Shown here: piece by piece, positions 47,445 to 64,000 of the stretch
How the letters are laid out: every line of letters starts with the position of its first letter
How positions within the stretch are numbered: the first letter of the stretch is position 1
NCBI RefSeq assembly: GCF_001613805.1
Contig: NZ_LPVY01000021.1
Location: 62,001-126,000, forward strand
Reading direction: 5' to 3'
DNA: 64,000 bases
Origin: Thalassospira lucentensis
GTDB taxonomy: Bacteria > Pseudomonadota > Alphaproteobacteria > Rhodospirillales > Thalassospiraceae
The notes under the pieces: generated by a model
The model's database searches: none
The model's input: only the letters and a program-made list of their open reading frames with translations
What the model was told of the DNA's origin: nothing
Program-made: the position numbers and the translations under genes

Positions 47445-48893
47445 TCAGCTTTTTACCTGCACTGATAAATGGGACAAATCGGCAAACGTACACCGGTTCC
47501 GGCCGGTTTCCTTGGCACGATAAAGCGCCTCATCGACCAGCGAATAGAGAATATCTGCCAAATCCGAGTTTTCGCGTGACTTCAGCAAAGCCACATCGCG
47601 GGCAATCTCGGCATCCATCTTTGCAATCGCTGCCTGTGTCGGCAATGATATCACCCCGAAACTTGACGTATAATTCAAATGCTTGCCGCCAAAGGCAACC
47701 GCGTCCTGCTCAAGTGAAGCACGAAGGCGTTCGGCAAGGATCATAGCCCCTTCCTTCTCTTCCCCCGGAAGCAGAACAGCAAACTCTTCGCCACCCAGGC
47801 GGGCGGGAAGGTCAATATCGCGCAGGCTGCGTTGCAAAAGTTTCGACAGGGATGCCAGAACCGCATCGCCTGCCTGATGCCCGTATGTGTCGTTCAAAAG
47901 TTTGAACTTGTCGATATCCAGCAAAAGAATGCTCATCGGCGTGTCGCGACGTTTCCAGATCGACAGGTTTTCTTCCAGACGCGTCATGAAAACACGCCGG
48001 TTGGCAAGACCTGTCAGCGGGTCCGTCGAGGCCAATACTTCAAGTTTGCCCATAGCATCATTAAGTTCACGCGTCCGGCTATCCACCCGTGCTTCAAGGT
48101 TTACATTCGCATCAAGCAAATCGTCACGCGCACGTTGCAATTGGCCGATTTGGCCACGGATCATACCAAAAAGACCAACAGTAACCGATCCCAGCAACTG
48201 CACTTCATCGTCATGCCGGTGCATGGGGGGCATTTCAAACGGGTGCTTAACATCCGTCGGGTCCGATTTGACGATGTAATGCGCAAGCTTTATCAGCGGT
48301 CGGGAAAAAACAAAGTAACTGAGTGCTGCAAACACCACAGCCATGGCTACGGCGAACACCATGTTCGCCAGAAATGACCACGCAGAACGGGACATGAATA
48401 CAGTCACAAAAACCTGCGGATTAAGTTCGACGACCATCATCCCGACCGAGCCGGAGGATGGTCCCGTATCCCCCGGCAACAGGATTTCACGTGTCTGCAA
48501 ACCGCCAAACAACTGTTCGGCCCACCTCGAAACCGGAATTTCCCCCGTTGCCCGTTTGCGCTGATACAGAACCGAACCGTCCTCATTTGTGATTGTGACT
48601 TTTGAAACGGAACGCTGCACCATCATGCCGCGCACGATTGCCTCGGCAAGATCGGTGTCCCTCTTTGTCACCGCCTCGTTAGCAACGGGTACACTGCTTT
48701 CAAGAACACGTTCATTGGCCTGTCGATAAACATCGCCAATCCAGCGATAATCGCTGACAATCTGGAAGGCGGTAATGATAAGGCCAAGCAATATCGCGGC
48801 AAACAGGGAATATTTAAGCTGCCTTGCAGCCACCGAACTGCCAAGCTTCAGTGCAGACAGGTCCTGCGCTTTCTCATTTCCTGTCTTGGACAC
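47445..48893 (-). CDS. membrane diguanylate cyclase with periplasmic sensor domain
   Basis: About 482 residues: one helix near residues 27-45, a roughly 120-residue periplasmic sensor domain, a second helix (SFLANMVFAVAMAVVFAALSYFV), a HAMP-like linker and coiled coil, then GGDEF with DPLTGLANRRVF, LDIDKFKLLNDTYGHQAGD and ARLGGEEF. The I-site RDID (RxxD) is intact, so product inhibition is expected. The proposed GTG start has AAAGG; a TTG at 48947 overlaps the upstream gene's stop by 4 bases. It follows a periplasmic binding-protein gene, so that protein may report ligand to it, as NspS does to MbaA (analogy). Confidence 0.9.
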   Translation of the reverse strand: MSKTGNEKAQDLSALKLGSSVAARQLKYSLFAAILLGLIITAFQIVSDYRWIGDVYRQANERVLESSVPVANEAVTKRDTDLAEAIVRGMMVQRSVSKVTITNEDGSVLYQRKRATGEIPVSRWAEQLFGGLQTREILLPGDTGPSSGSVGMMVVELNPQVFVTVFMSRSAWSFLANMVFAVAMAVVFAALSYFVFSRPLIKLAHYIVKSDPTDVKHPFEMPPMHRHDDEVQLLGSVTVGLFGMIRGQIGQLQRARDDLLDANVNLEARVDSRTRELNDAMGKLEVLASTDPLTGLANRRVFMTRLEENLSIWKRRDTPMSILLLDIDKFKLLNDTYGHQAGDAVLASLSKLLQRSLRDIDLPARLGGEEFAVLLPGEEKEGAMILAERLRASLEQDAVAFGGKHLNYTSSFGVISLPTQAAIAKMDAEIARDVALLKSRENSDLADILYSLVDEALYRAKETGRNRCTFADLSHLSVQVKS

Positions 48894-48943
48894 GCCTGAG
48901 CCTTTCTGTTCCAGCCATTTTATCCAGTGCAAGGCCACTGGTT

Positions 48944-50071
48944 TCAATCCCGTTTCGATACCGGGCTTAGCCCCTTGATCCCGAACTGATAGTCTCTTTG
49001 TTCCGGGTTGTTGACAAGACTGAACTGGGAAAAATCAATTTTGTCCCAGTCGCGTTCCCCAAGTACACGTTGGTAGACTTGCAGGTTTTCTGGCGTTACG
49101 GCCTGCATTCTGAAGAAAACTTCGGGGTTGTCCCTTAATCTTTCAACACCTTCGAGATAGTCTTTTAGCAATACCATGATCCATGCACCGGCCAGAAAAT
49201 GCCCGCCATGTGTCATGGTCATTTTGCCCGCAGCAACGCTCTCAAGCCCTTCGGCCGACCAGTTCAAACCACCAACGAAAACATCCTGCCCGGGGATTTT
49301 TCCGGCTTCTTCTATCGCCTTGATCGCACCAAGGGCAATGTTATCGTTTGCCGCCCAAACCGCGTCAAGACAACCATCGGTCTCAAGCCAGTCGGCCGTG
49401 CGACGATAAGCTTCCTCGAAAGACCAGTTGGCGACAAGACGACGCTGTTCACGCAAAACCGGATATCGTTCAAGTACGGTATCAAGCCCGTCAATGCGCA
49501 GCAGGGAAGCCGGTGTAACGCTGTCACCGGTCAGTGACAGCAGACAGATATTTTCAGGCATCCGGCCCCTATTGGCATCGCGTGCCGCCGTAATCAGCGA
49601 TTGGGCAATTTCAAATCCGGCACGTTCGTTATCGGGGACAAGGGTGGCGATCCATGTCGTTAATTCCGCCCCTGGCCGACCATATCGCTTCTTCTGCTCT
49701 TCTGTCAGGTCGTTCAGCAACATCAGAACCGGTATACCGCGTTCCTGCGCCTCAAGCACGATACGCGTCCCCTGCTGATGTTCGTTGACCGCGATAATAT
49801 AGTCGGGGGGCGGATTCATCGCAAAAACGCGATTGGCACTTTCGGCCATCATCGCCCAGTCACGGTCGCTATCGAAAACGGTCAGTTGAAAGCCGAACTG
49901 GTCGGCTGCCGCCTGCATAGTATCGCGGACATCTTTCCAGAAACCGCGATCCCCATAGCCGGGATTGATAAAGGCAATATGCGGCTCGCCCATATCGTTT
50001 GCCCCGCTTGCCTCGGCGCGCGCAGCAACAAAAAGCAGGCACAATACGGCGAGCCAACATCCAAGCCTCAA
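48944..50071 (-). CDS. periplasmic sugar-type binding protein, probable input for the cyclase
   Basis: A 375-residue periplasmic binding protein of the ribose/LacI-like (type 1) fold. The signal peptide ends in ARAEA. Segments include HIAFINPGYGDRGFWKDVRDTMQAAADQFG, PDYIIAVNEHQQGTRIVLEAQERGIPVLML, RIDGLDTVLERYP, AVWAANDNIALGAIKAIEEAGKIPGQDVFVGGLNWSAEGL. No ABC transporter genes are near; instead it precedes a membrane diguanylate cyclase. It likely senses a small sugar or autoinducer-like molecule. Comparable pairs (LuxP/LuxQ, NspS/MbaA) are known. Confidence 0.85.
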   Translation of the reverse strand: MRLGCWLAVLCLLFVAARAEASGANDMGEPHIAFINPGYGDRGFWKDVRDTMQAAADQFGFQLTVFDSDRDWAMMAESANRVFAMNPPPDYIIAVNEHQQGTRIVLEAQERGIPVLMLLNDLTEEQKKRYGRPGAELTTWIATLVPDNERAGFEIAQSLITAARDANRGRMPENICLLSLTGDSVTPASLLRIDGLDTVLERYPVLREQRRLVANWSFEEAYRRTADWLETDGCLDAVWAANDNIALGAIKAIEEAGKIPGQDVFVGGLNWSAEGLESVAAGKMTMTHGGHFLAGAWIMVLLKDYLEGVERLRDNPEVFFRMQAVTPENLQVYQRVLGERDWDKIDFSQFSLVNNPEQRDYQFGIKGLSPVSKRD

Positions 50072-52841: not shown

Positions 52842-55277
52842 TCAGTCTTGCAAGGCTTTACGCATGGCATTGGCGGTGTCCTCGGCAAGACGGTCAAGTT
52901 CGGCAATCTGGTCGTGAATTGCCGTATCAAAGTCGCCGTCATAAAGTTCGAGCTTGCGTGCATTCGCAAACAGCTTTTCAGCAGCCAGATTTGCCGCCAT
53001 TCCCTTGATTGTATGTGCAGCACGGCGAAGCCTTTCGCGATCACCATCTGTGATCGCGGCCATCATCTTTTCGCGTTCTTCCTGATAGGATGCCGGTAGT
53101 AGATCAATCAGGCTTGCCATCTGATCGGCACCCAATGCACTGCTCATTTCATCAAAGCGCATCTTGTCTATCAGGTTCATCTTGGTCTCTTTGGCTGAAA
53201 TGTTTTCGACAACCGGCTTTGGCGCCGACTGTTCCAAGGTCGAATCAGGTATAGGATTTACAGCCTCGGCGAGATCAGGAACGCGCGTATCCAAAACAGC
53301 GGGACGGGAAACACCGCGGCTTCTGAGGAAGCGCAAAAGCACACCATAAAGCCTGCGTTCCTCAACGGGTTTGGTCATGACTTCATCCATACCCGCAGCC
53401 AGAAAATCGCGATGCCGGTCGCTGAATGCTTCGGCAGTGACACAAATGATTGGAATGCGCCCCCCCCTGGTGACACGTTCCAGTTCACGAATATGACGGG
53501 TCGCACCCTCTCCGTCCAGAACCGGCATATGGGCATCCATCAGGATCGCGTCATAGGAATTGTTCTGGAAGGCATGCACCGCCTCCCGACCATTTGGAAC
53601 AATATCGACGATCAGTCCGTGACGCTGCAACAAGCCGCGGATCACATTGGCATTGATCTCGTTATCCTCGGCAACAAGAATGCGACGGCCAGAAAGCACA
53701 CTGTCACCATTACCCTCGGCAATCTGGCTGCCACCCTGCGCATGCAGTTCCGATTCCCGGGCTTCGAACGGCAGCCAAAGGTCAAACCGCGTGCCCTGTC
53801 CTTCGGCACTGTTGACCGTCATAAAACCACCCATCAGTTCCGTCAGGCTGCGCGCGATCGAAAGCCCAAGCCCCGTTCCGCCATATTGACGCATCGTGGA
53901 ATTATCGGCCTGACTGAAAGGGGAAAATATCTGTTCCTGTCGGTCCCGCGGGATACCGATGCCGGTATCGATAACCGCGAAATGGTATACTTCCTCATCC
54001 GAAATCAGATGTCGAACGCGTTCGGGTACAATTTCCTCGTGCGTGACTTCTAGTCTCACGGATCCCTTACGGGTGAATTTGACCGCGTTTGACAACAAGT
54101 TCCAAAGGATCTGACGAAACCGGACCTCGTCACCGATAAACATTCGCGTTGCCAAGGCCACATCATCGCAATGCAGGGAAAGGTTCTTTTCGCGCGCCAT
54201 ATCGGCAATCGCACGAAACAGGTCATAGGTGATATCGGATGGGTGAAACGGTCGTTTTTCCAGTTCGACGCGACCAGCCTCGATCTTGCTCATATCAAGG
54301 ATATCGTTCAAAAGCGCCATTAGCGCCCGCCCCGACGAAAGGATCGCGCTGACCCGTTCCTTTTGCGCATCGTCAAGTTGGCTTTGCTGTAACAGTTGCG
54401 CCATGCCCAGAACACCATTTAACGGAGTTCTGATTTCGTGACTCATCGTGGCAAGGAATTCGCTTTTGGCAGAGCTTGCCTGAAACGACTGGCGATAATG
54501 GCTGCGCAGTTCCAGCAACATGAAAGCCAGCGCGCAACTGTAACTGATCAGGCGGGACGGAATGATAAAGCGCGCAACAATATCGGCATTTTCCGGCCCG
54601 AAGGCAAAAAACGCCAGATGATTAAAACATCCGATCAGAAGCGCGAAACAAAACAAGGCTTCGGAAAGGGTAAATCGGTAGTGGCACCGGACCAGATACC
54701 CTGCGGCACAGGCAAAAATCATTACCATGGTGGGAAACAGGATCAGGGTACTGATATTTTGCAGGGCACCGCCGACATCACTTGAAACATCGGGCAAGAG
54801 CCAAACCAGGAATGCCAGAACGGCACATCCAGCCACGATCATTCCCGGTACCAGTCCCCATACCTGATCATTACCCGGCCTGTTTTCCTGGCGGTTCGCG
54901 ATATACCAACTCATAAGCACCAGCGAGAACGAGCCAAGCCGTAGAACAAGGATCAAAAGACCGTTAAAGGATCCAAGTGCCTGCTCCTGCCCCAGCAGGG
55001 CGCGACCATACACGAGATTGGGAATACCCAGAATATCGCTGAAAAGAAGCAGTCCCATCGAGGCTGCGACATACAAAATCTGTTTGCGCTTGGTGATGTC
55101 AAAAACAATCCAGCCAATGCATATCGACAACAGTGCAATAAACTCGACAACCACCAGAACAGAAATGGTAATTGCTGAAACCAGATCATCGTCAAGTGAC
55201 GTGAAAAACAGAAAACCAGGGCTGATGATACAAAACGCAAGAAACGCGATACCGGTAAGGCTCAGCATCTTGGGCAT
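52842..55277 (-). CDS. hybrid sensor histidine kinase (7-8 TM, HisKA, HATPase, REC, Hpt)
   Basis: An 811-residue phosphorelay protein. The first 265 residues hold about seven or eight membrane helices without large loops. Then come HisKA (SHEIRTPLNGVLG, phospho-His), HATPase (NLLSNAVKFT, DTGIGIP, GGTGLGLSIA), REC (AEDNEINANV, MDAHMPVLDG) near residues 530-650, and a C-terminal Hpt domain (RRAAHTIKGMAANL). It thus carries a full relay to a separate response regulator. The LuxO-like regulator 2.2 kb away is a candidate partner (inference). Confidence 0.93.
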   Translation of the reverse strand: MPKMLSLTGIAFLAFCIISPGFLFFTSLDDDLVSAITISVLVVVEFIALLSICIGWIVFDITKRKQILYVAASMGLLLFSDILGIPNLVYGRALLGQEQALGSFNGLLILVLRLGSFSLVLMSWYIANRQENRPGNDQVWGLVPGMIVAGCAVLAFLVWLLPDVSSDVGGALQNISTLILFPTMVMIFACAAGYLVRCHYRFTLSEALFCFALLIGCFNHLAFFAFGPENADIVARFIIPSRLISYSCALAFMLLELRSHYRQSFQASSAKSEFLATMSHEIRTPLNGVLGMAQLLQQSQLDDAQKERVSAILSSGRALMALLNDILDMSKIEAGRVELEKRPFHPSDITYDLFRAIADMAREKNLSLHCDDVALATRMFIGDEVRFRQILWNLLSNAVKFTRKGSVRLEVTHEEIVPERVRHLISDEEVYHFAVIDTGIGIPRDRQEQIFSPFSQADNSTMRQYGGTGLGLSIARSLTELMGGFMTVNSAEGQGTRFDLWLPFEARESELHAQGGSQIAEGNGDSVLSGRRILVAEDNEINANVIRGLLQRHGLIVDIVPNGREAVHAFQNNSYDAILMDAHMPVLDGEGATRHIRELERVTRGGRIPIICVTAEAFSDRHRDFLAAGMDEVMTKPVEERRLYGVLLRFLRSRGVSRPAVLDTRVPDLAEAVNPIPDSTLEQSAPKPVVENISAKETKMNLIDKMRFDEMSSALGADQMASLIDLLPASYQEEREKMMAAITDGDRERLRRAAHTIKGMAANLAAEKLFANARKLELYDGDFDTAIHDQIAELDRLAEDTANAMRKALQD

Positions 55278-55356: not shown

Positions 55357-56241
55357 TCACGCCCGACCCGAAAGTTCGACAATAATGTCGTCGACCCATC
55401 GCAGGGTATTGTCATCCATAGATTGCATATGCCGGTATTTTGCAAATTGCTGCACAATCAGTTCAAGCCGTTCACGAAAGACCGGTGGCTGCTCCAGATC
55501 AAGCAAACGATCCGCCATCGGATCGAAAGCAGCATTCTGGAATTCAAGCGACAGACTAATCCTTGGCTCGCTGGCAAAGGCACTTGCCCGTCCCCCCCAA
55601 TGATACAAATCCTGTCGCCACCCCATTACAGTCCCCGGCCCGGCTGGCAATGCCCGAACGTCTTGCAAAGCCACATCTTCCGGTTTAGCAACCGGCTGAT
55701 GATAACACTTTTCGAATGAACGCGGCAATACGTACATACAGCCGTTATCAGGGTTTGCAATGCCCAGTGGCACCCAAAGCGACAGACTGATCAGCATGTC
55801 ATCGCCGATTGCACTCTCCCCCTGATAATCGCGATGTGGGGGCCATCCACGCCCGTCCTCCCCGGGATTGACATGCCAGGCCCAAAAATGCGGAAGCAGC
55901 TTAACCCGATCCCCCAGGAAATGGTTCAGCAACGGGCGAAGCCGTCTAAACACCTGCCACGCCTCGTCGTAAAGATAGATCATCGCAGGCGGCAAGCCAT
56001 TCGCCACCAGGTTTTCGATCCCGGCCCGCAAATCCATCAGGCTGTCAACGGGCAAAAGGCCCCTGATCAGAAAATACCCATCCTCCCAGAACCGCTCCGA
56101 ATGGGCAGCACCATCGAACCCGCCCTGATCAGCCCCGATTGGTGGCACGTCCCCGATCCGGGCGTCATCGCCGGAAATCGTCAATTGCGGATTGATCGAA
56201 AGCCAGCTTGCACGTTCGCAGGCTTGAAATGCGGTTATCAT
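55357..56241 (-). CDS. phytanoyl-CoA dioxygenase (PhyH) family protein
   Basis: A 294-residue Fe(II)/2-oxoglutarate oxygenase. It has the double-stranded beta-helix pattern with HRDYQGESAIGDD (HxD iron ligands), MISLSLWVPLGIANPDNGCMYVLPRSF and the distal His in DLYHWGGRAS. EctD-like sequence is absent, so the substrate is unknown. Divergent from cobD. Confidence 0.85.
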   Translation of the reverse strand: MITAFQACERASWLSINPQLTISGDDARIGDVPPIGADQGGFDGAAHSERFWEDGYFLIRGLLPVDSLMDLRAGIENLVANGLPPAMIYLYDEAWQVFRRLRPLLNHFLGDRVKLLPHFWAWHVNPGEDGRGWPPHRDYQGESAIGDDMLISLSLWVPLGIANPDNGCMYVLPRSFEKCYHQPVAKPEDVALQDVRALPAGPGTVMGWRQDLYHWGGRASAFASEPRISLSLEFQNAAFDPMADRLLDLEQPPVFRERLELIVQQFAKYRHMQSMDDNTLRWVDDIIVELSGRA

Positions 56242-56388: not shown

Positions 56389-57450
56389 ATGACCCTGCAA
56401 TCCCCATCACATGGTGGCGCCATCGACAAGGCAGCCGAAAAATATGGTATTGCGCCGCAGGAATGGCTTGATCTGTCAACAGGCATCAATGCCACCCCAT
56501 GGCCGATATCGTCTTTTGATCCCATCCATTGGCAACGCCTGCCACTGGCAAGCGAATTGACTGCATTGAAGCAGGCCGCCGCCGACTATTACGGCATTCC
56601 TGATATCAAGCATATTGTTTGCGCCCCGGGAACACAGGCATTGATCCAGACCATTCCCTTCTGGTTTGCAGATCAGGGCAAACGCGCAACAGCCCATATC
56701 ATTGGCCCGACATATGCCGAACATGCCTTGGGCTGGAAACGCGCCGGGTTCAAAACAAATACCGTCATGACAACACCGGAAAACCGCAAGACCGCAATTG
56801 CAGATATTCTGGGATCACCGGGCGGCAGAAATGACATCGTCATTCTGGTTAATCCAAACAATCCCGACGGCGGTCTGATTGATCAGGTCACGCTGACCGA
56901 ACTCGCCCGAATGGCGACAGAAAACGGCAAATGGCTTCTGATTGATGAGGCCTTTATGGATTGCAGTCCGAAACACAGCATCTGTCCAAAGTGCCATGAA
57001 CTCGACCATCTGATTGTTTTGCGTTCGTTTGGCAAGTTTTTCGGTCTTGCAGGTCTGCGGCTGGGATGTGCCGTCATGCGTCCCGATCTGGCAGCGGATT
57101 TGACTGACCGGATAGGCCCATGGGCAATCGCGGGACCCGCACTTGCCATCGCATGCACAGCATTTGGCGACTGGGCATGGCAATCCGGTATGCGCAATCA
57201 GCTGTCTGACGATGCAAAACGCCTTGATGCCCTGATTGACGCACATTCCGATCTGGCTTTGCTAGGTGGAACGTCACTGTTCCGGCTTTATCACGGCAAA
57301 AACGCCACAGGTCTTGCCGACCATCTGGGGACACAGGGTATTCTGGTACGATTATTTGATGATGATGCGGGCCGCATCCGCTTTGGCCTGCCCGGTCCGG
57401 AAAAGGATTGGCAACGATTGGAACGGGCACTGGCAGCTTTCAGAAACTAG
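56389..57450 (+). CDS. cobD: threonine-phosphate decarboxylase (CobD-like)
   Basis: A 353-residue PLP-dependent enzyme of the CobD/histidinol-phosphate aminotransferase family that makes (R)-1-amino-2-propanol phosphate for the B12 nucleotide loop. It shows HGGAIDKAAEKYGIAPQEWLDLSTGINATPWP, the PLP loop LVNPNNPDGG, LIDEAFMD and the Schiff-base Lys in RSFGKFFGLAGLRLG. No other B12 biosynthesis genes adjoin it; the cbtBA riboswitch locus is 41 kb away. Confidence 0.9.
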   Translation: MTLQSPSHGGAIDKAAEKYGIAPQEWLDLSTGINATPWPISSFDPIHWQRLPLASELTALKQAAADYYGIPDIKHIVCAPGTQALIQTIPFWFADQGKRATAHIIGPTYAEHALGWKRAGFKTNTVMTTPENRKTAIADILGSPGGRNDIVILVNPNNPDGGLIDQVTLTELARMATENGKWLLIDEAFMDCSPKHSICPKCHELDHLIVLRSFGKFFGLAGLRLGCAVMRPDLAADLTDRIGPWAIAGPALAIACTAFGDWAWQSGMRNQLSDDAKRLDALIDAHSDLALLGGTSLFRLYHGKNATGLADHLGTQGILVRLFDDDAGRIRFGLPGPEKDWQRLERALAAFRN

Positions 57451-57455
57451 ACTGC

Positions 57456-59054
57456 CTATTTCGCCTCGTTCTCTTCCCAGGCCTGCTTTTTGCGATAAAT
57501 GGTCGACGGGCTGACACCAAGCGCATCCGCCGCACGCGGGATTGATCCACCGCATCGCGCAATCGCTTCTTCTATCGCCTGCTTTTCCACCAGCCAAAGC
57601 GGTTTGATTCCGGCATAACGGCTGTCCATCGGCAACCCGGCGGGTATCGATGCCATCGCGAACCGGCCATCCGCACCAATCATGGCCGGAGCCGAGGTCG
57701 TATCCATATGATGTGCCTCTGCATCGTCGCGCAGGTTGCGCGCACCGGCCAAGAAGGCCAACGCATCCGGGTCACCTTCCCAAAATCGACCGGCATCTTC
57801 CAACCCGTTTGACACAACCGGATGGGGTGGTGGTGCTTCGATGGATCCCGACCCAAAACGTTCTTCGTCCGTGCCGCTGTTAACCGGGCGGGGCACCATC
57901 GACATGGTGACTTCGGTGCCGTTATTCAGCACCACAATGTTGCGGATGATGTTCTGCAGCTGGCGGATGTTGCCCGGCCAGGCATAGCGCGCGAACAAAG
58001 CGGCCACGTCTGGGCTGAACCGTTGAAAATCGCGTCCTTCTTCACGGGTGAAGCGTTGCAGATAGAAATTGGCGATCTGCAGGATATCATCATCGCGATC
58101 ACGTAATGGTGGCATGTGAAGCGGAATCACGTGAAGACGATAATACAAATCTTCGCGGAAACGTCCGGCACGTACTTCTTCAAGCGGATCGCGGTTTGTT
58201 GCGCACACAAACCTTACATCAACGCTTTCAATCGAACTGCCACCGACTTTCTGGAACGTCCCGGTCTGGATGAAGCGCAGAAGCTTGGTCTGCAGATCAA
58301 GGTCCATTTCGCAAATTTCATCAAGAAACAGCGTTCCACCAGCGGCCCTGTGGGCAGCCCCTTCGCGGTCAATTACGGCACCTGTAAACGCACCTTTGAC
58401 ATGACCGAAAATCTCGCTTTCCATCAAATCCTTGGGGATCGCACCACAGTTCAGGGGAATGAACGGTTCGTTGACGCGCTCGGACCGGCGATGAATTGCT
58501 TCGGCGGCAAGTTCCTTTCCGGTACCTGACTCTCCGGTAATGAAAACCGTTGCCCGGCTGGGGGCTGCGTTTTCAATGATGCGATAAATATCATGCATCG
58601 TGTCCGATCCGCCAATGATGTCAAAATACATCTCGTCGGTGATATTTTCGCTGTCCGTTTTTTTTCCGGTATCATTGACCGCGGCCCGGCCTTCAAGCGC
58701 ATCACTGACCGTGACACGAAGTTTGTCGGCGGTGAAAGGCTTCAAAAGAAAGTCCCACGCCCCGTCACGCATGGCCTCGACCGCGATATTGACCGAACCA
58801 TGCGCTGTGATCACAACCACCTTGCATTCCGGCGCGGCCTGATGGGCAGCACGCAGAACTTCCCGACCATCCATGTCTGGCAGAATCAGGTCAAGGACCA
58901 GAACGTCTGGCGGATCACTGCGCAGCCTTTTGATCGCATCCCGACCGTTGACGACATGCTCGACCTTGTGACCGTCCGCACGCAAATAGTCCTGATACAC
59001 CCGCGCGAGCGACAAGGTGTCTTCAACAACAACAATGCGTGCCTGATCTGGCAT
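57456..59054 (-). CDS. LuxO-like sigma-54 response regulator
   Basis: A 532-residue NtrC-family activator. The REC domain has [13 protein letters not shown] and the phospho-Asp in [12 protein letters not shown]. The AAA+ domain (about 150-380) has Walker A GESGTGKE, the sigma-54 loop [24 protein letters not shown] and the arginine finger region [11 protein letters not shown]. The Fis-type HTH ends in [27 protein letters not shown]. The region between is a 100-residue variable linker. The start is taken as ATG at 59054; an upstream ATG lies inside a palindrome. It activates sigma-54 promoters; the target is unknown. Confidence 0.93.
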
Positions 59055-59082
59055 TTTGTGGTTCGCATCCCGATCTAACCAT

Positions 59083-59104
59083 CTATCGGCAACCATACCG
59101 ATAG
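59083..59104. promoter_or_regulatory. palindrome upstream of the sigma-54 regulator gene
   Basis: CTATCGG-CAACCATA-CCGATAG is a perfect 7-bp inverted repeat in the divergent promoter region shared with the STAS gene. It may be an autoregulatory operator. Confidence 0.4.
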
Positions 59105-59224: not shown

Positions 59225-59530
59225 TTGAATTACACCACCGAAAAATCCGGCAACACGATCAAAGTAGAACTGAATGGCCGATTTACATTTGGGGACCATT
59301 CCAGTTTTCGCAAACTGATCGAAGAAATCCGCAGTCAGGAGGCCGAAATACAAATTCTTGACCTTTCCGGGGTCGAGTTTATCGATTCAGCCGGGCTTGG
59401 CATGCTGCTGCTTGCACGTGACGAAGGTGAAAAGTCCCGTGCCACGGTCATACTCAAAGGCGCGCAGGGACAGGTCAAACGCATGCTTGAAGTTGCGCGG
59501 TTCGACACTCTGTTCAAACTGGAAGACTGA
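59225..59530 (+). CDS. STAS domain anti-sigma-factor antagonist
   Basis: A 101-residue STAS protein of the SpoIIAA/RsbV type. It has the conserved phosphorylatable serine in LSGVEFIDSAGLGMLLLARD and the fold pattern KVELNGRFTFGDHSSFRKLI and GQVKRMLEVARFDTLFKL. A TTG start follows GGGAGTATCACGGC. It lies 2 bases before the gene for a protein that contains both a kinase-like and a phosphatase domain, so phosphorylation and dephosphorylation of this STAS protein probably form a partner switch. Confidence 0.92.
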   Translation: MNYTTEKSGNTIKVELNGRFTFGDHSSFRKLIEEIRSQEAEIQILDLSGVEFIDSAGLGMLLLARDEGEKSRATVILKGAQGQVKRMLEVARFDTLFKLED

Positions 59531-59532
59531 CA

Positions 59533-61599
59533 ATGCCTGCAACCGGCGAGGTTCAGCCACGCCCATTTGTTGCCGTTGCCGAACCGCTTGACCGCGCGCG
59601 GGCGGCACAAGTGCTTGATGGTCGGCATATCTTCGGGGATGGAGCCGGTGCTCATGCGGAACTTTTCTTTGGCCGAAGCCCCGAAGATTTTCCTCACAGC
59701 AACCGATATCAGTTATGCCTGATTCCGTCCGAAACCGGCCGGGAATGGTTGGGCGCACTGGTCCGTCTTAACTGCAATTACTTTGTTGAATGCTATGACG
59801 GGCTTGATTTGGTCGACCTTGGCCCGTTGCGAACGGCCAAACGAGGCGCCAACTGGGACCTTCTGGTCTGTATGTCGACACAAAGTGCGTATCAATTGCC
59901 GATGGCACGCAAATTTGTCACGGCCCTTCGCCACCGCGGTATCATTCACGACACGATCGCACCGACGGTCGAAATGGCGGTTCAGGAAGCCTTCGCCAAT
60001 TCAATGATCCACGGCAATCTGGAAATGAATACGACCGGCCATCTGTCGATGGATCGCTTCAACGAACTGGGTGAGGAAACAGCACGCCGCCTGGCATCAC
60101 CGGTCTATGGCGGGCGGGTGATCATGCTGACCGCGAAAAAACGACGCAATGGCAATGTCGAAATTTCGATCAATGATCAGGGAAGCGGCTTTGTCCCACC
60201 CGATGAAACGCCAGTTCCCAAACTGCCCGGTGCGGAATCCACCTTTGGTCGTGGCCTGCCCCTGATCAGAAGCCTTTGCCACGATGTCAGCTTTGATCGC
60301 GGTGGAAGGACAATCCGGCTTACCTTTGCACCTGATACCGCCGCATCCCTGCCGTTGAACACGACTTTTGCCGCCGGACTGGAGGCGGCTGAACGTGCAT
60401 CGGGTGAAGCAGACCTGCGTAACCCGCGCGATGCCACGATCCTGATTGCCGACGACACCATGATCTCGCGCGAAATCATCGCGTCCTATCTGCGATCGGA
60501 TGGCTTTACCAATCTGGTTTTTGCCAAGGATGGCGAGGATGCACTGGAGCAGGCAAACAAACATAATCCCGACCTGATCATCCTTGATATTATCATGCCG
60601 AAAATGGATGGTTATGAGGTCTGCAAGGTTTTGCGCGCCGACCCTTCATTTGCCGAAACCCCGATCATCGCCCAGACAGCCCTTGAAGAAAACGAAGGTC
60701 GCACCCGTATTTTCGAAGACGGTGCAACCGACCTTATTCTGAAACCGCTGAACAAGGCGGAAATGATCGCACGCACGCGCATCCATCTTGAAAACCGCCT
60801 GCTGGTCAAACAACTGCAGGCCTATCAGGAACGCACGCAATCCGAATTGGAAATGGCGCGCGACATGCAGGAAATGCTGATACCGAAGGCGGAACAGTAT
60901 CGTGGTATCGGTCTTGATTATGGCATGACCATCAGCGCCAGCTTCCAGATGTCATCCGAACTTGGCGGTGATATGTGGGGACTGGCCCCGATTGATGACG
61001 ACAGGCTTGGTGTTTACATCGTTGACTTCGCCGGTCACGGTCTTGGTGCAGCGCTGAATACATTTCGCCTTCATTCCCTGATCTGGTCGGATGACCGACA
61101 TGACGATGATCCCGGCGCGTATCTGGAATCCCTTAACCGCCACCTCAAGGGGCTGCTGCCGGTTGGGCAATATGCGACCATGCTGTATGGCATTATAAAC
61201 CGTACTGCCGAAACATTCCGCTATGCCAGTGCGGCTTGTACGTCGCCGGTTCTTGGCAATGTCAAAACCGGCTCGACCACGTTTCTTGATGGCTCTGGCG
61301 TCCCGCTTGGCGTTATTCGCGATGCCAGATATGAAACGCGTGAAACCGCCTTTGGTATTGATAACTTCCTGCTGCTATACAGCGATGCCCTGATTGAAAC
61401 CGTGCTTGATGACGGCGCGCTGCTTGAAGGTGACCGCCTGCTGCATCTGGTACAGGATATTATTTCGGAAACAGGCGGCATGCCGGATCTGGCATCCCAT
61501 CTTGCCGATCAGTTCATGGATCGGGCACCGGTCAAACTGCATGACGACTTTACCGTGGTGTCATTGCAACCCAACCGGCAAACCCCGGAAAACCGTTAA
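59533..61599 (+). CDS. fused HATPase-REC-PP2C partner-switch protein
   Basis: A 688-residue soluble multidomain protein. After an N-terminal region (1-130) comes an anti-sigma-type HATPase (VEMAVQEAFANSMIHGNLE, ISINDQGSGFVPP, about 140-275). Next is a receiver domain (ILIADDTMISREI, phospho-Asp in LIILDIIMPKMDG, about 300-420). Last is a SpoIIE-type PP2C phosphatase (LGGDMWGLAPIDDDRLGVYIVDFAGHGLGAAL, KLHDDFTVVSL). The order HATPase-REC-PP2C differs from HsbR, where REC is N-terminal. It would switch the adjacent STAS protein by kinase and phosphatase activities, gated by phosphorylation of REC. The target pathway is unknown. Confidence 0.92.
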   Translation: MPATGEVQPRPFVAVAEPLDRARAAQVLDGRHIFGDGAGAHAELFFGRSPEDFPHSNRYQLCLIPSETGREWLGALVRLNCNYFVECYDGLDLVDLGPLRTAKRGANWDLLVCMSTQSAYQLPMARKFVTALRHRGIIHDTIAPTVEMAVQEAFANSMIHGNLEMNTTGHLSMDRFNELGEETARRLASPVYGGRVIMLTAKKRRNGNVEISINDQGSGFVPPDETPVPKLPGAESTFGRGLPLIRSLCHDVSFDRGGRTIRLTFAPDTAASLPLNTTFAAGLEAAERASGEADLRNPRDATILIADDTMISREIIASYLRSDGFTNLVFAKDGEDALEQANKHNPDLIILDIIMPKMDGYEVCKVLRADPSFAETPIIAQTALEENEGRTRIFEDGATDLILKPLNKAEMIARTRIHLENRLLVKQLQAYQERTQSELEMARDMQEMLIPKAEQYRGIGLDYGMTISASFQMSSELGGDMWGLAPIDDDRLGVYIVDFAGHGLGAALNTFRLHSLIWSDDRHDDDPGAYLESLNRHLKGLLPVGQYATMLYGIINRTAETFRYASAACTSPVLGNVKTGSTTFLDGSGVPLGVIRDARYETRETAFGIDNFLLLYSDALIETVLDDGALLEGDRLLHLVQDIISETGGMPDLASHLADQFMDRAPVKLHDDFTVVSLQPNRQTPENR

Positions 61600-62189
61600 T
61601 TCAGGAACCACGGCTGTGGTGGGGAAAGTTCCTGTGCAGGCATATGATCCTGCAAACCCCAGACGCGTGCAGTATCAGCAGGCACCTTCCAGGTCGCAGA
61701 TTTGTCTTCCTGGATGCGGCTGGTGATTACCGAGCGGATCAATGCAGCCAGTCCCTTTCGGGCACCGGCATGATCCGGATCAGCTGATAACACCGCCCCC
61801 AGTTGATTGAAGGCACGCATCCTGTCGCGGCATCCGACAAGGTCGGCGGCGACCACACGCAATTCACGGGCATCGGGCCGCAGGCTGATTGCGATTTCAA
61901 GATGTTCGAGCGCGGTTTCACGCGCCCCGTTCTGCAAATAGGTCCGGGTCAGTCCCAGGTGGGTTGCCGGATCAAGATCATCCAGCAACAGGGCCCGTCC
62001 AAACGCATCAAGAGCAAGACTGCCAAGCCCCATATCCAGCAGAACATGCCCCATTACCCGTAATCGGGCGGGTTGGTCAGGCAGCGTATCAATCAGATTG
62101 CGAAGACGGGTGCGAATTTCAGGCGCCAGATCAATGCCATCAATCGTGACCGCCGGTATCTGGGGTGAAATGTGCGTCTGGCCTGACAT
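61596..62189 (-). CDS. TPR repeat protein
   Basis: A 197-residue protein with about three tetratricopeptide-like repeats (ARLRVMGHVLLDMGLGSLALDAFGRALLLDDLDP, ATHLGLTRTYLQNGARETALEHLEIAISLRPD, MRAFNQLGAVLSADPDH). No signal peptide. The chosen ATG at 62189 precedes MSGQTHISPQIPAV; the 21-residue upstream extension is unlikely. Its stop overlaps the end of the convergent PP2C gene by 4 bases. It may scaffold proteins of the neighbouring switch (inference). Confidence 0.75.
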   Translation of the reverse strand: MSGQTHISPQIPAVTIDGIDLAPEIRTRLRNLIDTLPDQPARLRVMGHVLLDMGLGSLALDAFGRALLLDDLDPATHLGLTRTYLQNGARETALEHLEIAISLRPDARELRVVAADLVGCRDRMRAFNQLGAVLSADPDHAGARKGLAALIRSVITSRIQEDKSATWKVPADTARVWGLQDHMPAQELSPPQPWFLN

Positions 62190-62418
62190 CTGTCCGAAGC
62201 CCTGTTCCCGTCTGAGATGGCGAATCGTAACGACTCGCCAGAATCCTTGCAATAGCCAATAAAAACAACGAGTCGTTTCAATTGCTTAGATCGGCCGCAA
62301 AATCGGTATCCGGTGCTGTCCGGCGCACGACGCGGACATATGCCACTATCTGCCATGCCGGATGACCAGAAGAATACCCTGATTGGGTTGCGGGAAGATT
62401 AACCGGGAAACCGACATC

Positions 62419-62480: not shown

Positions 62481-64000
62481 TTATGATTTTGCGTCTGCCG
62501 GTCGGGGAGCTGATGGTGGATCTGCCCGATCCAGACCTGCCACATTGGGTAACGCATCCCAATCAATCGTGGCCGATGGCCGGGCAAAGAAATATCCCTG
62601 CGCCAGATGCCCGCCAAGACGCAGAACCTCGTCACGCTGTTCGGGTGTTTCGATCCCCTCAATCACACAATCCGTGCCCAGATTATCGCACATGTCGATT
62701 ACGGTTTTGACAATCCGCTGACTGCGTTCGCTGGTAACAATCGGTTCGATAAAACTGCGATCAATCTTCAGACAGTCGAATTCCAGTTCATGAACATAGC
62801 GCAGGCTGGAATACCCGATTCCGAAATCATCCAGCGCAACCTTTGCCCCGTGGCGGCGCAAATAGCGAATGCTGGCACGAGCCGACACAAAATCGCGCAG
62901 CAAAGCCGTTTCCGTCACTTCAAATGTCAGACGTCCCGGATCAATCCCAAAGAATTTGATCTGATCAATCAGCCAGTGCGCCATGTCGGGCAGAACTATA
63001 TCGCGGGCCGACAGGTTAAACGACAGCGGTACATCCTGCGGCCAGGCGATCATGGATTTCAGGGCCTTCTGGAACAGGATCGTCGACAAAGTTCCGACCT
63101 GTCCGGTTTTTTCGGCCACCGGGAAAAACATTTCGGGTGAAACCCGCCCCATTTTGTCGTTATCCCACCGGGCAAGCACCTCGATCGAATGCAGTTTGCC
63201 GCTATGCAAATCAAAAACCGGTTGATAGTGGATCGACAATTCGCTTTCCAGATCGGCCTTGCGCAGGGCCTGTTCGATCTGGCTGTCATGGCGGATCAGG
63301 GTTTCGTGATGGGCGGCGAACAAAACCGGATGGCCCGGCATGTTTTTCTTGGCGTAGTAAAGCGCGAAATCGGCACGCTCGAACAGGGCGTTGGGTTTAC
63401 GCGCCACCGCCGGGTAGGTCGCAAAACCAAGCGAAGCGGAAAGCTGCACCGTTCCCCCGCCAACCTCGAACGGATCATTAAGCGTTCCGCAAAGTTCCCG
63501 TCCGATACGGATCAGTTCCGCGGCATCCGTAATATCGTCAAGGATCACACCGAATTCATCCCCACCCAGTCGCGCCAACAAGACATCCGGTCCCAGAATG
63601 TCGCGTAAGCGGGCGCTGGCTTTGACCAGCACATCATCGCCAGCCGGATGGCCATGCACGTCATTGACCGGCTTGAATCCGTCCAGATCAATCATCGCAA
63701 CCGCAAAACGCCCGCCGTCCTTTGCGCGTGCTACCGCTTCGTCAAGATGGGAAAAGAATGCGCGGCGGTTGGAAAGACCGGTCAATGCATCACGAAAAGC
63801 CAGTTCACGGTTCTGGTTGGAAAGCTCGATGGTTTTAGTGTGCTGCTTTTCCAGATCGATTTGCGATTCCACCAGTCCGGAAAACGCCGCGTAGTAGCTT
63901 CGGATGATCTGGACAATCATCAAGGATACCATCGCCATATTGGCCGCAATCGCGACATAGACCTCGTTCCCGGTCGACCCGAAATGCAGGATGAAAGACC
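62481..64000 (-). CDS. GGDEF-EAL c-di-GMP protein, membrane-anchored (5' end outside window)
   Basis: The C-terminal 506 or more residues of a larger protein; the frame is open to the right edge, and the first residues visible include a membrane helix (VAIAANMAMVSLMIVQII). GGDEF has FRDALTGLSNRRAFF and ARLGGDEF; the residues at the I-site read LGPD, so no RxxD. EAL has YQPVFDLHSGKLHSIEVLARW (EVL variant), DDFGIGYSSLRYVHELEFDCLKIDRSFI and VIEGIETPEQ, so phosphodiesterase catalytic residues look intact. Whether it makes, breaks or only senses c-di-GMP is open. Confidence 0.93.
   Translation of the reverse strand, partial: SFILHFGSTGNEVYVAIAANMAMVSLMIVQIIRSYYAAFSGLVESQIDLEKQHTKTIELSNQNRELAFRDALTGLSNRRAFFSHLDEAVARAKDGGRFAVAMIDLDGFKPVNDVHGHPAGDDVLVKASARLRDILGPDVLLARLGGDEFGVILDDITDAAELIRIGRELCGTLNDPFEVGGGTVQLSASLGFATYPAVARKPNALFERADFALYYAKKNMPGHPVLFAAHHETLIRHDSQIEQALRKADLESELSIHYQPVFDLHSGKLHSIEVLARWDNDKMGRVSPEMFFPVAEKTGQVGTLSTILFQKALKSMIAWPQDVPLSFNLSARDIVLPDMAHWLIDQIKFFGIDPGRLTFEVTETALLRDFVSARASIRYLRRHGAKVALDDFGIGYSSLRYVHELEFDCLKIDRSFIEPIVTSERSQRIVKTVIDMCDNLGTDCVIEGIETPEQRDEVLRLGGHLAQGYFFARPSATIDWDALPNVAGLDRADPPSAPRPADAKS

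Follow-up and report, generated by a model that had tools for sequence, protein, structure and literature searches.

The locus and its fused protein

The window, by which we mean the whole analysed stretch of 64,000 nucleotides from contig NZ_LPVY01000021.1 of Thalassospira lucentensis, carries at 59533..61599 on the forward strand a gene (coding part 59533-61596, +) for a protein of 688 amino acids that joins a kinase-like, a receiver and a phosphatase domain in a single chain. Pfam reports HATPase_c_2, Response_reg and SpoIIE in this order, each above its gathering score, and the first-pass annotation was thus right that the three domains are fused and that the receiver lies between the two catalytic domains, unlike the receiver-first HsbR type. 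The HATPase_c_2 domain (residues 121-264; 59893..60324, +), a predicted STAS serine kinase, is supported by Pfam, by an alignment of 18 proteins and by a profile alignment, the receiver (residues 303-414; 60439..60774, +) by Pfam and the same 18 proteins, and the SpoIIE-type PP2C phosphatase (residues 488-679; 60994..61569, +) by Pfam, profile, alignment and fold matches. The phosphatase part can be aligned from about residue 427, a stretch that takes in the conserved D480 a little ahead of the Pfam match. An N-terminal segment (residues 1-105; 59533..59847, +) falls outside known families: Pfam gave no match at E<=1, a search of PDB folds gave none at E<=0.001 (best E 0.019), and a profile comparison with the N-termini of five other HATPase proteins indicated no relation (probability 0.2%), while the structure model of this segment is an alpha/beta fold of middling confidence.

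The alignment, made of the window protein and the proteins of 17 named Thalassospira loci, was used to ask whether the N-box of the HATPase or the metal residues of the PP2C domain had degenerated. All 18 proteins retain E152 and N156 (N-box), D215, G217, G219 and G239-G241 in the HATPase, D307, D308, D352, T382 and K404 in the receiver, and D480, D498, D618, D671 and D672 in the phosphatase. As the motifs of all three domains are intact, a reading of the protein as a set of degenerate domains is ruled out by alignments and profiles alike, and the predicted picture, in which an intact receiver is placed between a kinase and a phosphatase domain of opposite effect, holds at the level of domains and motifs. 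The receiver of one genome (G020; L219, L279) carries ADE in place of ADD. The HATPase profile finds SenB as its top match among PDB entries and SpoIIAB (anti-sigma F) as a weak one; in the profile alignment E152 and N156 fall on E46 and N50 of SpoIIAB, which are catalytic in that protein. The PP2C profile matches the phosphatases RssB, SiaA and SpoIIE, and a Foldseek search points to these phosphatases too, albeit from a low-confidence model of the whole fusion (mean pLDDT 63.6).

The fusion is not an artefact of assembly, since it is present in every same-genus genome searched (25 of 25, its own included); three of these gave a match in two pieces owing to a longer linker, each still within one open frame, and across 29 of 29 Thalassospira genomes the fusion occupies an open frame of 686-773 amino acids. 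The nearest named match among those listed, T. xianhensis, shares 95% identity across the fusion.

Directly upstream lies a gene for a STAS-only protein of 101 amino acids (59225..59530, +; Pfam STAS in 59225-59527), whose stop codon ends at 59530 and is followed after two bases by the ATG of the fusion at 59533, the spacing that had been proposed. The predicted phospho-acceptor of the STAS protein is Ser55 within the motif FIDSAG, which aligns, with positions counted by hand, with Ser56 of the STAS protein SypA of Vibrio fischeri, described as a regulatory site in the available text of PMC10120452; the sequence upholds the designation of this protein as the partner of the fusion. The gene begins with TTG (59225-59227), preceded by GGGAG, and the TTG, with purine-rich sequence ahead of it, is kept in all 17 Thalassospira loci. 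Such a conserved weak start may set the ratio of STAS protein to switch protein. At E<=0.001 the genome contains a single SpoIIE-domain match, which is that of the fusion; its three STAS matches comprise the window one, alone in a short frame (117 aa), and two in longer ones (609 and 512 aa); and among ten HATPase_c_2 matches the fusion scores best, with 59.6 bits against 29.3 bits for the next. This makes it easy to pair the predicted kinase and phosphatase with their STAS substrate.

Divergent from the STAS gene is a gene for a LuxO/SypG-like sigma-54 response regulator (57456..59096, -; Pfam and NCBIfam), in which Pfam identifies a sigma-54 activator domain and a receiver (57459-59096, -). 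The protein is 43% identical to SypG of V. fischeri in a two-protein BLASTP comparison and reaches 651 bits against the LuxO equivalog NF041946, below the curated cut-off of 800; it is LuxO-like, not LuxO. In trees neither a grouping of Thalassospira with SypG (p 0.22) nor one with Vibrio-type LuxO (p 0.33) is rejected, which places the protein in the LuxO/SypG family but in neither clade with confidence. Farther away lies a gene for a hybrid histidine kinase (52842..55277, -) with HisKA, HATPase_c, Response_reg and Hpt domains (Pfam, 52845-55277, -). The two regulators had been named as neighbours of the fusion: the LuxO-like gene does adjoin the STAS gene, and the hybrid kinase gene is present in the locus but not adjacent, as it is separated from the LuxO-like gene by a PhyH-like gene (55357-56241, -) and an aminotransferase gene (56389-57450, +). 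On the other side, genes for a TPR protein (61596-62252, -) and a GGDEF-EAL protein (62481-63998, -, running to the end of the window) are convergent neighbours kept in the genus. Elsewhere in the window, a gene for a periplasmic binding protein runs into the beginning of a GGDEF gene at 47445-50071 (-), possibly a ligand-sensing diguanylate cyclase pair.

Conservation of gene order with the STAS gene, which had been put forward as a check, was found in all 17 Thalassospira loci, where the order PhyH-like, aminotransferase, LuxO-like, STAS, fusion, TPR and GGDEF-EAL is maintained (two further loci, L039 and L040, matched only by the receiver or by receiver-PP2C at 27% identity, were left out of these counts). 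Since this conservation extends over the entire region and to its other genes as well, adjacency within the genus says little. The far end of the locus varies: it holds the hybrid kinase in 7 of the 17 loci and a lone Hpt frame of 112-146 amino acids in the other 10 (L027-L033, L036-L038), with the Hpt confirmed by Pfam in the one of these that was checked, L027, and also in L220, a locus outside the 17. The fused form of the Hpt is seen only in the window and in L216, L217 and L270, as the locus end cuts the kinase in seven loci. In one genome (G020) neither an Hpt nor a hybrid kinase was matched at the locus or within about 19 kb past the PhyH-like gene, so the Hpt donor need not be local. 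A lone Hpt also precedes the SypG-like gene of a Vibrio-type locus (L131:6867-7247).

A predicted partner switch and its candidate outputs

The first-pass annotation had taken this arrangement for a possibly uncharacterised one, a claim that does not survive comparison with V. fischeri, where both the domain order and the companions (a STAS protein, a LuxO-like regulator and an Hpt hybrid kinase) recur as SypE, SypA, SypG and SypF. PMC3610818 places the receiver of SypE in the centre, with a serine kinase on its N-terminal side and a PP2C-like phosphatase on its C-terminal side; this order, published in 2013 at the latest, must be regarded as already characterised. In the sections available of later work, SypE switches from kinase to phosphatase on activation and controls SypA, its domain architecture is called unique, and SypA is placed downstream of SypE (PMC10120452). 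SypF relays information to both SypE and SypG, the Hpt domain of SypF is by itself enough to complement the deletion of sypF, and one strain without SypF still made pellicles, via LuxU, according to the available part of PMC12369376.

SypE sequences were reached by searching a Vibrionaceae genus, which was picked on its LuxO-like matches, with the LuxO-like protein. A second LuxO-like gene was found at E<=1e-90 in 11 of its 14 genomes, and all 11 syp-type loci carry, upstream of this second gene, a frame of 515-522 amino acids with a receiver in mid-frame, together with a STAS gene. One locus, L193, includes 21 consecutive bases that PMC10120452 gives for V. fischeri sypA, and the other ten are without them. 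The SypE frame of L193, the only one of the 11 run against Pfam, has HATPase_c_2 at 30-151, the receiver at 162-270 and SpoIIE at 332-520, which together with the SypE papers rules out an uncharacterised domain order. A SypF-like kinase frame occurs in 8 of the 11 loci, L199 shows no more than a short frame with an Hpt, and L191 and L196 have none; the SypF-like protein of L194 comprises HisKA, HATPase, receiver and Hpt, and the frame in L193 stops before an Hpt.

We consider it probable that the locus encodes a SypE-type switch that modifies the STAS protein at Ser55, probably takes its input from an Hpt relay and stems from a gene fusion separate from that of SypE. The HATPase domain would phosphorylate Ser55 of the STAS protein encoded just upstream, the PP2C domain would remove this phosphate, and the receiver between them would set the balance of the two activities; the activities, the STAS protein as their substrate and the Hpt as donor are all predicted from sequence. 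By analogy with SypE and HsbR, from which the direction of the receiver effect is taken, an unphosphorylated receiver would leave the kinase on and the STAS protein phosphorylated, and a phosphorylated receiver would turn the phosphatase on and leave the STAS protein free to bind its target, for which just one of its phospho-forms would be competent. A nearby Hpt, fused to the hybrid kinase here and free-standing in other species, probably phosphorylates the receiver and perhaps also the LuxO-like regulator. The Hpt domain that Pfam detects in 52845-55277 (-) agrees with the suggestion that a nearby Hpt could feed the receiver, and species with an Hpt alone at the locus are a natural setting in which to ask if the input that matters comes from the Hpt and not from its kinase. 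Regulation of the STAS-fusion operon by the LuxO-like protein is unsupported, as a simple consensus count over 18 sequences revealed no convincing sigma-54 site upstream of the STAS gene (at best 7 or 8 of 12 fixed letters).

Candidate targets of the STAS protein, all taken from analogous systems, are a sigma factor as for CrsR and HsbR, a c-di-GMP enzyme as for HsbD, or another partner as for SypA. The first candidate leads to an alternative in which the HATPase domain would serve chiefly as an anti-sigma factor and the release of a sigma factor would fall to the STAS protein. The kinase box resembles that of SpoIIAB, and CrsR of Shewanella oneidensis and HsbR of Pseudomonas aeruginosa, in which these three domains are arranged differently, bind RpoS in the available text of PMC6482189; yet no sigma-factor gene occurs among the named window genes, SypE acts on SypA (PMC10120452), and none was found near rbaVW of Rhodobacter capsulatus as far as the available text of PMC3999984 goes, all of which makes us regard this alternative as unlikely. 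We judge it quite improbable that the STAS protein switches c-di-GMP signalling via the neighbouring GGDEF-EAL protein, in the manner of HsbA, the phosphorylated form of which binds the diguanylate cyclase HsbD in P. aeruginosa, where HsbR is itself fed by an Hpt protein (PMC6482189, in the part available): the GGDEF-EAL gene stays with the locus in 17 of 17 Thalassospira loci, but other genes are kept there equally, and the protein was unmatched at E<=0.003 in 14 loci of other genera, some of them short. To return to the SypE-type switch that we favour, its description as a general-stress switch finds no support, and a role in surface behaviour may be suggested solely by likeness to SypE and HsbR.

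Occurrence and origin of the fused order

Within the taxonomic order of Thalassospira, the HATPase part found a match at 1e-8 in 124 of 297 genomes, and 20 regions were fetched, 19 of them outside the genus and chosen for long HATPase frames among the matches listed; seven of the 19 proved HATPase-first, six receiver-first and six of another or unclear arrangement. At least eight genomes of the order outside the genus, G203 included, carry a HATPase-first fusion, with a STAS match beside each. Genomes of the same order (L251-L254, L265, L267) also contain receiver-PP2C-HATPase fusions, the HsbR order, with a divergent STAS gene. In a sample of 398 genomes of the phylum, 24 matched the fusion at E<=1e-30, a threshold that would overlook SypE; beyond the genus, a match running from HATPase to PP2C was confined to G203. 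The fusion query in 80 genomes of a Vibrio-type genus returned chiefly receivers of other proteins and receiver-PP2C frames among the matches listed, and the HATPase part in 121 genomes of the Vibrio-type family gave 26 loci, 18 of them with the order receiver-PP2C-HATPase and none HATPase-first. A plasmid collection had no place covering 80% of the query. A Rhodobacteraceae plasmid (L127:3995-8962) carries a run of receiver-PP2C, STAS, ATP-binding protein and large kinase-like response regulator genes, followed by a DUF3131 gene. Literature searches returned no paper on partner switching in Thalassospira or on Thalassospira biofilm with LuxO, and none joining STAS, serine kinase/phosphatase, receiver domain and alphaproteobacteria.

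In loci from other genera of the class, the same parts are frequently encoded apart. Nine of 14 such loci have STAS, HATPase and receiver-PP2C as separate, close frames, comprising six of the nine loci from the same taxonomic order (L202-L205, L208 and L214, the last with a broken receiver-PP2C frame) and three from other orders (L209, L210, L212); the three separate genes were not seen together in the remaining five (L206, L207, L211, L213, L215). The receiver-PP2C protein closest to the Thalassospira clade (88/84 support) is from G431 (L210), a member of another order in which the HATPase gene is divergent from the STAS gene. In a receiver-PP2C tree of 36 rows, from which Y_G032b and Y_G027b were left out for an absent or weak receiver, the Thalassospira sequences nest with alphaproteobacterial split genes and a clade with SypE is rejected (AU p 0.0149), whereas a HATPase tree of 31 rows does not reject it (p 0.27). 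SypE forms a long branch in the receiver-PP2C tree and its placement is unsure, so that a separate origin is likely but not proven.

A receiver-PP2C tree with more HATPase-first rows took in four of the six receiver-first proteins and left out five SypE sequences, four HsbR-like ones, Y_G103b, Y_Paracoccus and Y_RhodobSC52. It rejects a single clade of all HATPase-first fusions (p 8.6e-11), which argues that fusion of HATPase and receiver-PP2C genes, in both orders, has probably recurred, and it weakly rejects a clade of Thalassospira with G753 (p 0.025). With G203 as the sole other HATPase-first row, one clade with Thalassospira is not rejected (p 0.171 in the receiver-PP2C tree, 0.086 in the HATPase tree). 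The fusion likely arose from neighbouring HATPase and receiver-PP2C genes of a set resembling RbaV/W/Y of R. capsulatus, separately from SypE, to which the window protein is probably not orthologous.

True orthology of the window protein to SypE, with transfer between Vibrionaceae and Thalassospira that took along the SypG-like regulator and the Hpt kinase, appears very unlikely, for although domain order and companion types match, the identity to SypG and the SypG clade speak in its favour and the HATPase tree allows it, the receiver-PP2C tree rejects the joint clade, identities are low (22% for the fusion with SypE and 22% for the STAS protein with SypA), the Vibrio-type LuxO clade is equally allowed, and no syp structural genes occur among the window genes that were named, which represent part of the window.

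A wider reading can be offered, albeit tentatively and with some doubt on our part: the switch may have been assembled independently around a receiver, in company with a STAS gene, a single time in Vibrionaceae, as SypE, and at least twice in the order of Thalassospira. The Hpt of Thalassospira would then be a hub, able to live without its kinase, that reads the receiver and also serves the LuxO-like regulator, so that the whole syp-type quartet of STAS protein, switch, LuxO-like regulator and Hpt would have been rebuilt in an unrelated lineage. The same domain order seemingly built separately, together with relatives that keep the parts separate, provides a before-and-after comparison of a receiver that gains two opposing enzymes.

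Comparison with known systems

The Thalassospira switch leaves the known class of mechanism unchanged, and what interest remains lies in its seemingly repeated assembly, its extra N-terminal segment and its natural kinase-less Hpt variant.

The HsbR-HsbA and CrsR-CrsA systems also have receiver, PP2C and kinase in one protein acting on a STAS-type antagonist, but the order there is receiver, PP2C, kinase and in the window protein kinase, receiver, PP2C; by the Pfam order, identity with the HsbR type was rejected, and the protein does not belong with HsbR and CrsR in this respect.

RbaV/W/Y of R. capsulatus form a set of STAS, HATPase and receiver-PP2C proteins with rbaY elsewhere in the genome, and Rhodopseudomonas palustris has a three-gene set of the same composition, as described in the available text of PMC3999984. 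The window resembles these in that all three parts are present in an alphaproteobacterium, with STAS and HATPase encoded together, and in that its relatives keep the parts as separate neighbouring genes. It differs in that W and Y are separate proteins there and one protein in the window genus, where a single open frame was found in 29 of 29 genomes.

The closest likeness is with the SypE system, which shares HATPase_c_2, receiver and SpoIIE/PP2C in this order in a single protein, a stand-alone STAS partner with an aligned serine as predicted phospho-site, and a LuxO-like sigma-54 regulator and an Hpt hybrid kinase in the locus. There are, however, differences: no syp polysaccharide genes were recognised among the named window genes, and SypE frames span 515-522 amino acids, with the one tested beginning almost at the HATPase domain, whereas the window protein has about 105 extra residues at its N-terminus.
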